A DNA stretch of 10,240 nt from Candidatus Rokuibacteriota bacterium (GTDB taxonomy: Bacteria; Methylomirabilota; Methylomirabilia; Rokubacteriales; JACPHL01). The notes beneath the pieces were generated by a model. The model saw only the letters and a list, made by a program, of their open reading frames with translations. It was not told the DNA's origin and did not search any database. The stretch covers positions 1-10,240 of the forward strand of contig JACPHL010000134.1 of the NCBI GenBank assembly GCA_016188625.1. The letters are read 5' to 3'. Shown piece after piece: positions 3,960-9,913 of this stretch (positions within the stretch are counted from its first letter, which is position 1; each line of letters begins with the position of its first letter). The translations under genes were made by a program, and so were the position numbers.

Positions 3960-5927
3960 ATGGCCCACGAGTTCCGCTACCTCTTCACCCCGATCCGGGT
4001 CGGCCGACTCACCCTGAAGAACCGGATCTACTCCAGCGGCCACGCCGAGGCGATGGCCGAGGGGGGGAGGCCGACGGAGCGGCTCCTCCGCTACCACGAG
4101 GCCAAGGCGCGGGGCGGGGCCGCCCTGACCATCGTCGGGGGCTCCACGAGCGTCCATCCCTCCTCGCCCGCCTCCGCGTGGAACCTCCTCGCCAACCACG
4201 ACGACTCGATCATCCCGGGCTACCGGGAGCTGGCCGCGGCGATCCACCGCCACGACTGCCTGGCCTTCACCCAGCTCACCCACCTCGGGCGCCGGGCCCG
4301 GTCCGACACCGAGGCCTGGCACGTGCTGCTGGCCCCCTCCCCGATCCCCGAGCAGGTCCACCGCGAGGTCCCCCACGAGCTCGAGCCCGAGCAGATCGCC
4401 GGGCTGGTTCGCGCCTTCGGGGCTGCGGCCCGCCGCTGCCGGGAGGGGGGCCTGGACGGGATCGAGGTCTCCATGGCCCACAACCACCTCATCGACCAGT
4501 TCTGGTCGCCGCTGTTCAACCACCGGACCGACGAGTACGGCGGGCCTCTCGAGAACCGGATGCGCTTCGCCTTCGAGGTCCTCGCCGAGATCCGGCGACA
4601 GGTGGGGCTCGACTTCGCGGTGGGGGCGCGGATCTCCGGGGACGAGCTCACCGACGGCGGCCTCACGGCCGACGACATGGCGGAGATCGCCCGGCGCCTG
4701 GCCGCCTCGGGGCTGGTGGACTTCCTCTCGGTCATCGGCGGGGGGGCCCACACCTATTCCCTCCAGGCCGCGGTGGTCCCGAACATGAGCTTCCCCAACG
4801 CCGTCTACGTCCCCTTCGCCGCGGCGATCAAGCAGGCGGTGCCGGAGTTGCCGATCTTCCACGCGGCCCGGATCGTGGACACGGTCCACGCCGACCTGCT
4901 CCTGGCCGAGGGGTACATCGACGTCGTGGGGATGACCCGGGCGCTCATCGCTGACCCGGAGCTGCCCCGGAAGGCCCGTCAGGGGCGGTTCGAGGAGATC
5001 CGCCAGTGCGTGGGGGCCAACGAGGGATGCATCGACCGGATCTACCAGGGGAAGCCGGTCACCTGCCTCCAGAACCCGGTGACGGGCCGGGAGACCGAGC
5101 TGGGTGAGCTCCGCCCCGCGGCGGTCAGGAAGAAGGTCGTGATCGTGGGGGGTGGCGTCGCAGGGCTCGAGGCCGCTCGGGTAGCAGCCCTCCGCGGCCA
5201 CCGGGTGGTCCTCTTCGAGAAGGAGGCGGAGCTGGGGGGGCAGGTCCTCCTCGCCGCCCGCGCCCCGGCCCGCGCCGACTACGCCGGGATCGTCCGCTTC
5301 CTCTGGGCCCAGGTCGCCAAGCTCGGGGTGGAGGTCCGTCTCAGGGTGGAGGCGACCGCCGAGCTGGTCCTGGCGGAGGCCCCCGAGGCGGTGATCATCG
5401 CCACGGGCTCCCACCCCTACCTCCCCCCGCTCCCCGGCGCGGACGGCAAGCACGTGGTGACGGACCGGGACGTCCTCCTCGGGCAGGCGCGGGTGGGGGA
5501 CCGGGTCGTCCTTGTGGACGACGTCCATACCCAGCAGGCCCTCTCCACCGCCGAGTTCCTGCTCGACCGGGGGAAGCGCGTGGAGGTGGTCTCGCGCCTC
5601 TTCTACCCCGGCCAGGAGAGCGGCATCACGTCCATCGTCCCCCTCTACACCAGGCTGTTCGCCAAGGGCGTGGTCCTCACCCCCCACGCCGAGCTCCGCG
5701 CCATCGAGGGCTCGACGGTGGTCGTCGCCAACGTCTACTCCGGCGCCGAGCGCCGGATCGAGGGGGTGGACACCGTGGTCCTGGCCATGGGGAGCCGCGC
5801 CACGGACCACCTCTACCGGACCCTCAAGGGACGGGTCGCTGATCTCCACGCCGTGGGCGACTGCGTGGCGCCGCGGGGGGTCCACCACGCGCTGCTCGAA
5901 GGGACCCGGGCGGCCCGGGCGATCTAG
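3960..5927 (+). CDS. TMADH/DgcA-type FMN-, Fe-S- and FAD/ADP-binding oxidoreductase
   Basis: The product has 655 residues, the usual size of the trimethylamine dehydrogenase/2,4-dienoyl-CoA reductase/dimethylglycine demethylase (DgcA) family. Residues about 5-340 form an Old Yellow Enzyme TIM barrel for FMN, with QLTHLGRR, MAHNHLIDQFWSP (His174) and the hallmark RTDEYGGPLENRMRF. A cysteine segment follows: C350-x2-A353-x3-C357-x11-C369, where FadH and TMADH have four cysteines; the second is alanine here. Residues about 393-425 are a Rossmann fold (GGGVAG 397-402), and a second nucleotide domain begins near VVLVDDVH. The residue three before His174 is Ser171 where TMADH has the substrate-oxidising Tyr169, so it is probably not a TMA dehydrogenase. 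Neighbouring ETF and Fe-S genes suggest an N-methyl amine or amino acid dehydrogenase passing electrons to ETF; the substrate is unproven. The start has GGGAGGCAGG just upstream. The etfA start lies 3 nt after the stop. Confidence 0.88.
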   Translation: MAHEFRYLFTPIRVGRLTLKNRIYSSGHAEAMAEGGRPTERLLRYHEAKARGGAALTIVGGSTSVHPSSPASAWNLLANHDDSIIPGYRELAAAIHRHDCLAFTQLTHLGRRARSDTEAWHVLLAPSPIPEQVHREVPHELEPEQIAGLVRAFGAAARRCREGGLDGIEVSMAHNHLIDQFWSPLFNHRTDEYGGPLENRMRFAFEVLAEIRRQVGLDFAVGARISGDELTDGGLTADDMAEIARRLAASGLVDFLSVIGGGAHTYSLQAAVVPNMSFPNAVYVPFAAAIKQAVPELPIFHAARIVDTVHADLLLAEGYIDVVGMTRALIADPELPRKARQGRFEEIRQCVGANEGCIDRIYQGKPVTCLQNPVTGRETELGELRPAAVRKKVVIVGGGVAGLEAARVAALRGHRVVLFEKEAELGGQVLLAARAPARADYAGIVRFLWAQVAKLGVEVRLRVEATAELVLAEAPEAVIIATGSHPYLPPLPGADGKHVVTDRDVLLGQARVGDRVVLVDDVHTQQALSTAEFLLDRGKRVEVVSRLFYPGQESGITSIVPLYTRLFAKGVVLTPHAELRAIEGSTVVVANVYSGAERRIEGVDTVVLAMGSRATDHLYRTLKGRVADLHAVGDCVAPRGVHHALLEGTRAARAI

Positions 5928-5930
5928 CGC

Positions 5931-6873
5931 GTGGGGTTCTGGGTCGTCGCCGAGACCTCGGGGGAGGGAGTCCACGAGGCCTCGCTGGAGGCCCTGGAGG
6001 CGGCGCGGGCCCTCGGCGACGGGCCGGGGCCGGCCGCGGTCGTCCTCGGCGGGCCGGTCCCCGAAGGGGTGCCGGGGCTCCTGGCCGCCCACGGCGCGGG
6101 TCGGGTCCTCTGCCTCGAGCACGAGGCCCTCGCCGAGTGGGGCCCCGGGCTCCACGCCGCGGCGCTGACCGCCGCCCTCGCCGCCGAGCGCCCCCGCGCC
6201 GTGCTCCTCGCCGGGGTGCGCCACCGACTGCCTCTCGGTCCGCTCACGTTCCGACGGGAGCCTGGAGGCCGTCCGGCCGGCCTTCGGAGGGTGTCTCCAG
6301 GCGACGATCGTCGTTCCCCGGGAGGTCCCCGCGGTCATCACCCTCCGCCCCGGGGCCATCGGTCTCGGTTCCCGGGAGGCCGACCGCCAGGCGGCCGTGG
6401 AGCGTCGTCCGGCCCGGATCGACGCTCTCGCGCCGGGTCTCCGCCGCCGCCTGATTCCCCCCGACCCGCGGCGGGTGGACCTCCGGGAGGCGGAGCGGAT
6501 CGTCGCGGGCGGCCGGGGAATCGCCGGTCCTGAGGGGATCGCGCTCCTCCAGGAGCTGGCCGACCTCCTCGGCGCCGCGCTGGGGGCGAGCCGCGTGGCC
6601 GTGGACCTCGGCTGGCTCCCCTGGGAGCGCCAGATCGGCCAGAGCGGCCGGAGCGTCGCCCCCCGGCTCTACCTCGCATGCGGGATCTCCGGTGCCTCCC
6701 AGCACCTGGCGGGGATCCGCGGGGCGGGGACGATCATCGCCGTCAACACCGATCGGAGCGCCCCGATCTTCTCCGTCGCCCACCTCGGGGTCGTGGGCGA
6801 CTGGCGGGAGGTGGTCACGGCGCTCCTGGAGCGCCTCGCCGCCCGCGGGGAGGCCAGGGGCCTGTCCCGGTAA
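5931..6873 (+). pseudogene. etfA: electron transfer flavoprotein alpha subunit, frameshifted with internal deletion
   Basis: A GTG at 5931, 3 nt after the preceding stop, starts the EtfA N-terminal domain (VGFWVVAETSGEGVHEASLEAL ... AERPRAVLLAG) in one frame up to about 6215. From about 6217 the family sequence continues in the next frame: CATDCLSVRS, AVRPAFGGCLQATIVVP, then the FAD domain with AERIVAGGRGI, GASRVAVDLGWLPWERQIGQ, YLACGISGASQHL and INTD-like VNTDRSAPIF, to TAA at 6871. Between the two parts the conserved family block TxxGRDLAPRxAARLG (about 17 residues) is absent. The frame change fits a loss of 3n+2 bases, near 50. The FAD-binding C-terminal domain is intact. As written the gene cannot make a normal ETF alpha. 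Because the partner etfB and both flanking genes are intact, an assembly or sequencing error is a serious alternative to a true pseudogene. Confidence 0.88.
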
Positions 6874-7065
6874 CGCCGATGCTGCTCGCACGCCCTGGAA
6901 CCTCGGCTCGCGGATGGGTGGGGGCGGCGCACCCGTCTCGGGCTCGCCGGGCGGGGCCCCTCCTCCTTCGTTCTGAGCCCATTATCCGGCTTCCCCACCC
7001 GGCTCGCTCACGACGGGGACCCGCGCCGCTCCGCTTAACGTTCCGCTCGGGGCCAACGCCTCCCA

Positions 7066-7121: not shown

Positions 7122-9050
7122 ATGGAGATCACCCGCGAGGTCTGGTGGAACGTCCCCGGCTGGCTCGCCCTGGCCCTCTACCTCGGCTCCGCCCTGACCG
7201 TCGGCTTCGCCGTCCGGGTCGCCCTCGGCCACGTCCGCCGATGGCTTCGGGGAAGGCCGCTGACGGCCGCCCGTCCCCTGGCGCCCGGTCGCGCGCTCCG
7301 GCGGGTGGCGGTCGAGGTCTTCGCGCACCGCCGGATCTTCGAGGATCCCGCGGCCGGCTGGGCGCACCTCCTGATCTTCTACGGCTTCCTCGCCCTCTTC
7401 ACCGGCACCCTCATGGTCTTCGTCCACGACCGGCTCGTCCCGTTCCTCTTCGGCCCCACCTACCTCGTCTTCTCCCTCACCCTCGACCTCGCCGGCCTGG
7501 CCTTCCTCGTTGGGGTCGGCTGGGCGCTGGTCCGGCGCTTCGCGGGAGGGCCCGGGCGCCTCCCGCGCAGCGCCGAGGCGCTCTGGGTGCTCCTCCTTCT
7601 GGGGGCGATCGGCGCCAGCGGCTTTCTGCTCGAGGGGGCCCGGATCGCCGCCACCCGGCCGCCCTTCGAGGTCTGGTCGGTCGTCGGGTGGACCATCGCC
7701 CGGGGGGTGATCGCCCTCGACCTCCCGGCCGCGCCGCTCCACCGTTTCCTCTGGGGGCTCCACGCCGCGCTCTCCTGCGCCTTCTTCGCGCTCCTGATGG
7801 TCACCTTCCTCCGCCACATGGCGACCGCGCCGCTCCAGCTCCTGCTGCGCGAGCTGCGCCGGGTCGGCGCCCTCGCCCCGGCGCCGCCGGACGGGGGAGC
7901 ACGGCCGCTTGCGCCTGAGTCCCTCTCCCGCGTCCAGCTCCTCGAGGCCTCGGCGTGCGTCCGCTGCGGCCGCTGCAGCGCGGTCTGCCCCGCGACCGCG
8001 GCGGGGAAGGCGCTCGACCCGCGGGGGGTGATCCGGAAGACCCTCCGGGCGATGCTGGAGGCCCGGCCGCTCGACACCCTCGTCACCCCCGAGGAGGCCT
8101 GGGCGTGCACCACGTGCGCGGCGTGCGTCCGCGCCTGCCCATTCGAGATCGAGGTGCTCGACAAGCTGGTGGACCTCCGGCGGCGCTGGGTCGAGCAGGG
8201 CGCCATCGACCCGGGCGCGGCGCGGGCGCTGGAGGCGATCCTCGAGCGCGGGAACCCCTGGGGCGCGCCGCCGGGCGAGCGGATGGCCTGGGCGGAGGGG
8301 CTTCCGGTCCGGGTCCTGGCGCCGGGCGACGAGGTCGAGGTCCTCTACTGGGTCGGGTGCGCGGGGGCCTTCGACCCCTCGGGGCGGCGGGTGACCCGGA
8401 GCGTGGCCCAACTGCTCCAGCGGGGCGGGGTGGAGTTCGGGGTGCTGGGGCTCGCCGAGTCGTGCACCGGCGACCCCGCCCGGCGGATGGGGGAGGAGGG
8501 GCTCTTCCAGGAGGCGGCCGCGCGCGTCGTGGCGGCCCTCGGCCGGGTCCGCTTCCGGCGGCTGCTCACCCACTGCGCCCACTGCTTCCACGCCTTCCGG
8601 AACGAGTACCCGGCCCTGGGCGCCCGCTGCGAGACGGTCCACCACACCCAGCTGCTGGCCGAGCTGGTGCGCGCCGGCCGGCTTCAGCCGGGCCCCGCCC
8701 TCGGGGCGACCGTGACCCTCCACGACCCCTGCTACCTCGCCCGCCACAACGGGGAGTCCCGGGCGGCGCGGACGCTCCTGGCGGGGCAGCCCGGTCTCGA
8801 GCTCGTCGAGATGCCGCGGAGCCGCGAGCGGACCTTCTGCTGCGGGGCCGGGGGCGGGGGGAACTGGATCGAGCTCCGCCAGGGGGAGCGGATCGCCACC
8901 CTCCGGATGGCCGAGGCGCGCGCCACCGGGGCCTCCGTCGTCGCCACGGCCTGCCCGTTCTGCACGATCATGCTGGAGGGGGAGACGGCCGGGCAGGGGA
9001 TGGTCGTCCGCGACGTGGCGGAGCTGCTCCTCGAGGGTCAGCCGGCGTGA
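7122..9050 (+). CDS. membrane-bound HdrD-like Fe-S protein, probable ETF:quinone oxidoreductase (EMO/DgcB type)
   Basis: The product has 642 residues. The N-terminal domain (1 to about 235) holds about five membrane segments (near 13-36, 81-101, 112-137, 153-172, 208-231) and resembles the heme b protein NarI. Candidate heme ligands include His69, His82, His214 and His232, and the 18-residue spacing of the last two equals that of NarI His187/His205. Two [4Fe-4S] ferredoxin motifs follow: C279-x2-C282-x2-C285-x3-C289P and C329-x2-C332-x2-C335-x3-C339P. Two CCG domains (HdrB/HdrD type) complete it: C413...S447-C448...C485-x2-C488, and C537...C573-C574...C611-x2-C614. This layout matches fused ETF:(methyl)menaquinone oxidoreductases and DgcB. 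Lying between etfA and etfB, it very likely takes electrons from ETF and reduces quinone. The ATG has no clear ribosome-binding site, but MEITREVWWNVPGW looks like a natural N-terminus. The stop overlaps the etfB start (GTGA). Confidence 0.9.
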   Translation: MEITREVWWNVPGWLALALYLGSALTVGFAVRVALGHVRRWLRGRPLTAARPLAPGRALRRVAVEVFAHRRIFEDPAAGWAHLLIFYGFLALFTGTLMVFVHDRLVPFLFGPTYLVFSLTLDLAGLAFLVGVGWALVRRFAGGPGRLPRSAEALWVLLLLGAIGASGFLLEGARIAATRPPFEVWSVVGWTIARGVIALDLPAAPLHRFLWGLHAALSCAFFALLMVTFLRHMATAPLQLLLRELRRVGALAPAPPDGGARPLAPESLSRVQLLEASACVRCGRCSAVCPATAAGKALDPRGVIRKTLRAMLEARPLDTLVTPEEAWACTTCAACVRACPFEIEVLDKLVDLRRRWVEQGAIDPGAARALEAILERGNPWGAPPGERMAWAEGLPVRVLAPGDEVEVLYWVGCAGAFDPSGRRVTRSVAQLLQRGGVEFGVLGLAESCTGDPARRMGEEGLFQEAAARVVAALGRVRFRRLLTHCAHCFHAFRNEYPALGARCETVHHTQLLAELVRAGRLQPGPALGATVTLHDPCYLARHNGESRAARTLLAGQPGLELVEMPRSRERTFCCGAGGGGNWIELRQGERIATLRMAEARATGASVVATACPFCTIMLEGETAGQGMVVRDVAELLLEGQPA

Positions 9051-9913
9051 AGGCCCTCGTCCTCCTCCGCGAGGTCCTCGACGCCACCCTCCCCCTCGAG
9101 CCCGGTGACGGCCAGGGGCCTCGGGTGAAGGGCCAGGAGGCGATCCGGGTCCTGAACCCAGCCGACCGCGCCGCGCTGGAGTGGGCCTGTCGTCTCCGCC
9201 AGGGCGAGATCACCGCGCTCACCGTCGGCCCGCCCGAGGTCGAGGGGATCCTTCGCCTCGCCCTGGCCCGCGGGGCCAGCCGGGCGATCCGCGCGTGGGT
9301 CGGAGGGATGGAGGGATCGGACGCCCCGGCCCTGGCCAGGCTCCTCGCTCTCGCCGTCGATCGGCTCGGCCCCGACCTGGTCCTCACCGGCGACCGGAGC
9401 CTGGAAGGCGGGACCGGGCTGGTCCCGGGACTGCTGGCGGCGCGCCTGGGATGGCCGCACCTCGACGGGGCGACCCACCTTGGGCGCGACGGCGGGCGCA
9501 TCGTGGTCCGGCGGCGCCTCGAGCGCGGGTGGCGGGAGGAGGTGGAGGCGACGCCCCCGGTGGTGGTCGCGGTGGAGGCCGGCTCGATCGAGCCGCGCTA
9601 CGTGTCGGTCCGGGTCCGGCGCGAGGCCCTCGCGCGCCCTCTGGAGGTGTGGGGAGCGGCTCACCTCGGGGTGGACGTCGCGGCCGTGAAGGGGTGGGTC
9701 CGCTCGGAGGTTGCGTCCCTGGACTGGCCGCGGCCGCGACCGAGGAGGGTCACCCTGCCGGACGCCCGGCTCACCGCCGGGGAGCGGATGCGCCGGCTCA
9801 TGACCGCAGGACCGACCCCGCTCCGGACCGGCGAGGGGAGGCTCCTCGAGGGAGGCCCCCGGGAGATCGCCGAGCGGCTCGTCCGCTTCCTCGAGGAGCG
9901 CGGCCTCCTCTGA
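9047..9913 (+). CDS. etfB: electron transfer flavoprotein beta subunit
   Basis: The product has 288 residues and starts at GTG 9047, which overlaps the preceding TGA as GTGA, a sign of translational coupling. EtfB-family features are the N-terminal strand MKALVLLREV, the segment RVLNPADRAALEWACRLRQGEITALTVGPP, the ALARGASRAI motif, DLVLTGDRSLEGGTGLVPGLLAARLGWP (the region that binds AMP in classical ETFs), PPVVVAVEAG with EPRY, and a C-terminal tail ending in ERLVRFLEERGLL. The AMP loop GDRSLEGGTG differs from the usual GKQAIDDDxxQTG, so nucleotide binding may be altered. With ETF alpha it would form the soluble FAD carrier between the dehydrogenase at 3960 and the membrane Fe-S protein at 7122. 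The order etfA, Fe-S gene, etfB is unlike the usual adjacent etfBA pair. Confidence 0.88.
   Translation: MKALVLLREVLDATLPLEPGDGQGPRVKGQEAIRVLNPADRAALEWACRLRQGEITALTVGPPEVEGILRLALARGASRAIRAWVGGMEGSDAPALARLLALAVDRLGPDLVLTGDRSLEGGTGLVPGLLAARLGWPHLDGATHLGRDGGRIVVRRRLERGWREEVEATPPVVVAVEAGSIEPRYVSVRVRREALARPLEVWGAAHLGVDVAAVKGWVRSEVASLDWPRPRPRRVTLPDARLTAGERMRRLMTAGPTPLRTGEGRLLEGGPREIAERLVRFLEERGLL

Follow-up and report, generated by a model that had tools for sequence, protein, structure and literature searches.

The gene for the alpha subunit of ETF (etfA) in the window, which is the entire contig C258 (10,240 nt) of the draft genome G000 (2.6 Mb in 344 contigs, 84% complete), shows one out-of-frame loss, 53 bases long, at positions 6213-6216, and etfA as written would not give rise to a working EtfA. 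With a probability of roughly 55%, the loss is of technical origin, i.e. it arose in library preparation or assembly and the organism's own gene is intact. A technical error is somewhat favoured because other frame breaks are found in the same draft genome.

Results

The gene cluster and its relatives

Upstream of etfA lies the gene for an Old Yellow Enzyme (OYE)-type oxidoreductase and downstream follow the genes for an FeS protein and EtfB (Table 1); a further gene, which bears a Tat signal, begins at the contig end. An earlier note on this DNA had claimed that the remaining genes of the cluster are intact, and this holds for the OYE-type enzyme, the FeS protein and EtfB; between etfA and the FeS gene, a dispersed repeat is present. 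The start codon of etfA is GTG (5931), only 3 nt downstream of the OYE-type gene, and EtfB, the partner expected for an EtfA, is recognised by PF01012 with 106 bits. The best NCBIfam models for etfA are mft_etfA (NF038209) and AcrA (NF042970), with the longer piece of the gene below the equivalog cut-offs. The scores are below the cut-offs of all mycofactocin OYE/ETF models considered: 677 of 793 bits for OYE 2, 152 of 240 for mft_etfA (longer piece only) and 103 of 200 for mft_etfB. The FeS protein combines a dicluster ferredoxin domain (PF13183/PF13187) with CCG domains (PF02754) and is encoded beside EtfAB, the domain composition of an EMO-type protein.

Table 1 Features of the cluster, further copies of the repeat, and frame breaks found in the survey
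Feature	Position	Strand	Remarks
Old Yellow Enzyme-type FMN/FAD oxidoreductase, intact	3960..5927	+	best NCBIfam TIGR03997 (mycofactocin OYE 2), below cut-off
etfA 5' piece, 95 codons, frame A	5931..6215	+	PF01012 positions 2-96
etfA junction GGGG, site of 53 nt missing compared with every homologue	6213..6216	+	homologue alignment
etfA 3' piece, frame B, stop 6871-6873	6217..6873	+	PF01012 positions 115-178, whole FAD-binding domain PF00766
Diverged copy of the 173-nt palindromic dispersed repeat, apart from the gene break	6897..7064	-	between etfA and FeS gene
FeS protein, dicluster ferredoxin and CCG domains, EMO/HdrD-like, putative ETF:quinone oxidoreductase, intact	7122..9050	+	
etfB, intact	9050..9913	+	best NCBIfam TIGR04503 (mft_etfB), below cut-off
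Further copies of the repeat (examples)	G000, C264:54-226, C185:5340-5512, C22:4731-4903		
Thiolase-like gene, ~115 nt missing	G000, C96 ~6.44 kb (L249)		
Acyl-CoA dehydrogenase, ~25 nt missing	G000, C20 ~4.82 kb (L353)		
Aminotransferase, frame break without block loss	G000, C19 ~14.54 kb (L243)		in GC palindrome
Control gene, ~64 residues lost and frame change	G001, L271 ~1708	-	same kind of lesion

The same four genes, OYE-EtfA-FeS-EtfB, are present in the same order and on the same strand in G039, another genome of the order (contig C363, locus L152), there with an intact etfA. Identities between the window and this locus are ~42-45% for etfA, 45% for the FeS protein, 38% for EtfB and 49% for the OYE-type enzyme. 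Looser relatives of the cluster were seen at Neobacillus and Chloroflexi loci (L040, L050, L057). OYE-type enzymes, EtfAB and EMO-like FeS proteins co-occur in distant genomes, with varying combination and order (L038, L040, L050, L057, L152). G000 is the sole genome of its genus in the comparison set, and a scan of public genomes gave only relatives with ~40-50% identity.

The break in etfA

The 5' piece of etfA is read in frame A and ends with ...AALAAERPRAVLLAG (...AVLLAG); from 6214/6217 on, the coding sequence proceeds in frame B (GCATDCLSVRS...) up to the stop codon at 6873, and thus there is no continuous single reading frame for EtfA. The N-terminal ETF domain (PF01012) is incomplete and distributed over both pieces, in different frames (Table 1), and the C-terminal FAD-binding domain (PF00766) is complete in the second piece (1-81 of 81 positions, 117-119 bits, cut-off 27). 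GC3 is 0.97 before the junction and 0.92 behind it in the new frame, compared with 0.62 behind it in frame A. Since two adjacent pieces of one family follow each other in consecutive order, each with the GC3 of its own frame, chance is excluded. Translated as written, the 5' piece would continue into ~105 unrelated residues, with a stop at 6533.

For the alignment of the site, 120 EtfA-matching loci were gathered from relatives and public genomes, and 111 distinct sequences among them span it. Exactly 20 residues lie between the flanking conserved ends A(LLA) and A(ATDC) in every one of the 111 homologues, whereas the window has 7 nt (GGGGTGC, 6213-6219) between the same flanks. The loss therefore amounts to 60-7 = 53 nt, or 3x17+2, i.e. 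17 codons plus 2 nt, at the GGGG of the junction. The earlier note had postulated an ETF alpha broken by a frame change together with the loss of a conserved block, had explained both by a deletion of 3n+2 bases, about 50, and had named an alignment with EtfA homologues as one check; frames, Pfam pieces and homologue alignment agree with this, and the size is now fixed.

The lost block is strongly conserved (at its main positions T in 92, G in 86, R in 102 and R in 93 of the 111 homologues; the R present in 102 occupies the sixth position). Solved ETF structures, e.g. 6fah and 4kpu, include clear homologues of the intact relative L152, and the block is present in them too. Because of this conservation, neither piece nor any frameshift product can be regarded as a normal EtfA. 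A slip of one base at the GGGG run would join the two frames, but +1 ribosomal frameshifting at GGG_GTG is hardly credible as the source of a functional short EtfA: its product would still be without 17 residues that are present in 111/111 homologues, and a short-form relative was not found among these. Programmed frameshifting was rejected, as it does not restore the lost block.

Technical error or genuine deletion

The remaining etfA is without decay. There is no second lesion, the FAD-binding domain is complete, the coding GC3 is kept and the identity to G039 is at the level of the intact neighbours, which argues that the lesion is either recent or artefactual. The earlier note considered a collapsed or mis-assembled GC-rich stretch. 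Indeed, 60-nt windows centred at 6150-6200, just before the junction, are in the top 1-4% of the contig for GC, and other breaks in the draft genome speak somewhat for an error. However, the etfA site offers an assembler no repeat of ~50 nt to collapse: only a 21-nt, 81% repeat with a spacing of 30 nt was found there, which gives no support to a collapsed tandem or long direct repeat. An exceptional hairpin at the junction was likewise dismissed as the cause, since hairpin energies of this size are common in the contig.

In a survey of ~0.58 Mb, relatives' proteins were compared with parts of G000 and of a better assembled control genome, G001. Four frame breaks, including the one in etfA, were found in ~189 kb of homology-covered sequence of G000, compared with one in 169 kb of the control. 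The etfA break is therefore not unique: two of the other three breaks also involve the loss of a block (Table 1). The difference in rate between the two genomes is suggestive, not significant. Several survey candidates were dismissed: L334/L303 is a permease pair in which neighbouring genes are joined in the query, L346 is likely an overlap, and further ones are antisense shadow frames.

Against a technical origin stands that a few pseudogenes per hundred genes are also natural and that the break rate is not significantly above that of the control. The alternative, to which we give somewhat short of even odds, is that the organism itself, or part of its population, has recently undergone a true deletion; etfA would then be a pseudogene and the cluster would be losing its function or be served by another EtfA. 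In favour of this, the contig reads cleanly throughout and shows no further lesion, and the loss could be tolerated, since the genome has two further EtfA genes with intact frames. One of these (contig C320) adjoins EtfB and the other (C150) EtfB and another FeS protein. Moreover, a palindromic repeat lies behind etfA where G039 has ~30 nt, so this operon has undergone at least one disturbance. On the other hand, the three neighbours (OYE-type enzyme, FeS protein, EtfB) are intact and their coding signal is normal, the remaining codons of etfA are undecayed, and the other breaks in G000 point to a common technical source.

A palindromic repeat behind etfA

The gap behind etfA is 248 nt long and holds one copy of a dispersed repeat, whereas the corresponding gap in G039 is without it. 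The repeat has a consensus of 173 nt with 16-nt inverted ends (GGGAGGCGTCGGCCCC/GGGGCCGACGCCTCCC) and at least 47 copies in the G000 draft; its 15-nt core, with at most one mismatch, was found at 63 sites, compared with 0 for the reversed control. The fold of 29 aligned copies is a single long hairpin of 53 pairs, and 9 of these are changed on both sides with pairing kept, e.g. U-A to C-G in 10 copies. According to rough gene predictions, 27 of 30 copies checked are located between genes, only one of them between divergent genes. Six further genomes of the order contain full-length, distant matches. An Rfam search of the window, repeat included, gave no family match, and a Y1 (REP-type) transposase that could move the repeat was not found in the G000 draft. 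The element has the look of a palindromic repeat or MITE-like family not yet named. Other short recurrent sequences, e.g. CTCGGCTCGCGGATGG and GGGGCCTGCCGGGGGGC, flank copies of it (e.g. at L164, L219, L211, L162, L214, L225), which suggests mosaics of several repeat families.

Discussion

The break in etfA is an ordinary finding, since similar breaks in G000 give an error of assembly or library preparation about the same likelihood as a genuine mutation. It matters mainly as annotation hygiene. Automatic annotation would log the cluster as one without EtfA or with two fragments, and the OYE/ETF/FeS chain might be mistaken for dead in a metabolic reconstruction. Because the draft holds several frame breaks with block loss, missing functions inferred from G000 need checking. 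Taken as written, the sequence would leave the presumed electron path from an OYE-type dehydrogenase via EtfAB to a membrane FeS/quinone oxidoreductase without its alpha subunit. On the favoured, technical reading, the loss would have arisen in library preparation or assembly of a fragmented metagenome genome.

ETF subunits are usually partner-specific, so that a shared subunit is no more than a possibility. That the break is real and, in addition, the OYE/EtfB/FeS chain is served by the EtfA of another cluster of this genome, which would amount to subunit sharing between ETF systems, is improbable in our view.

Compared with known EtfA proteins, which consist of PF01012 and PF00766, the gene in the window likewise has both domains recognised and is in an operon with EtfB; it differs in being without 53 nt in domain I and in being split over two frames. 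The cluster resembles that of EMO, the ETF:(methyl)menaquinone oxidoreductase of syntrophs (PMC8805022), in which an FeS/CCG protein is also found beside EtfAB and presumably delivers electrons to quinone. By analogy to EMO, an electron path from the OYE-type enzyme via EtfAB and the FeS protein to quinone is plausible. The likeness to EMO is one of domain composition, and the electron donor in the window would be an OYE-type enzyme instead of an acyl-CoA dehydrogenase.
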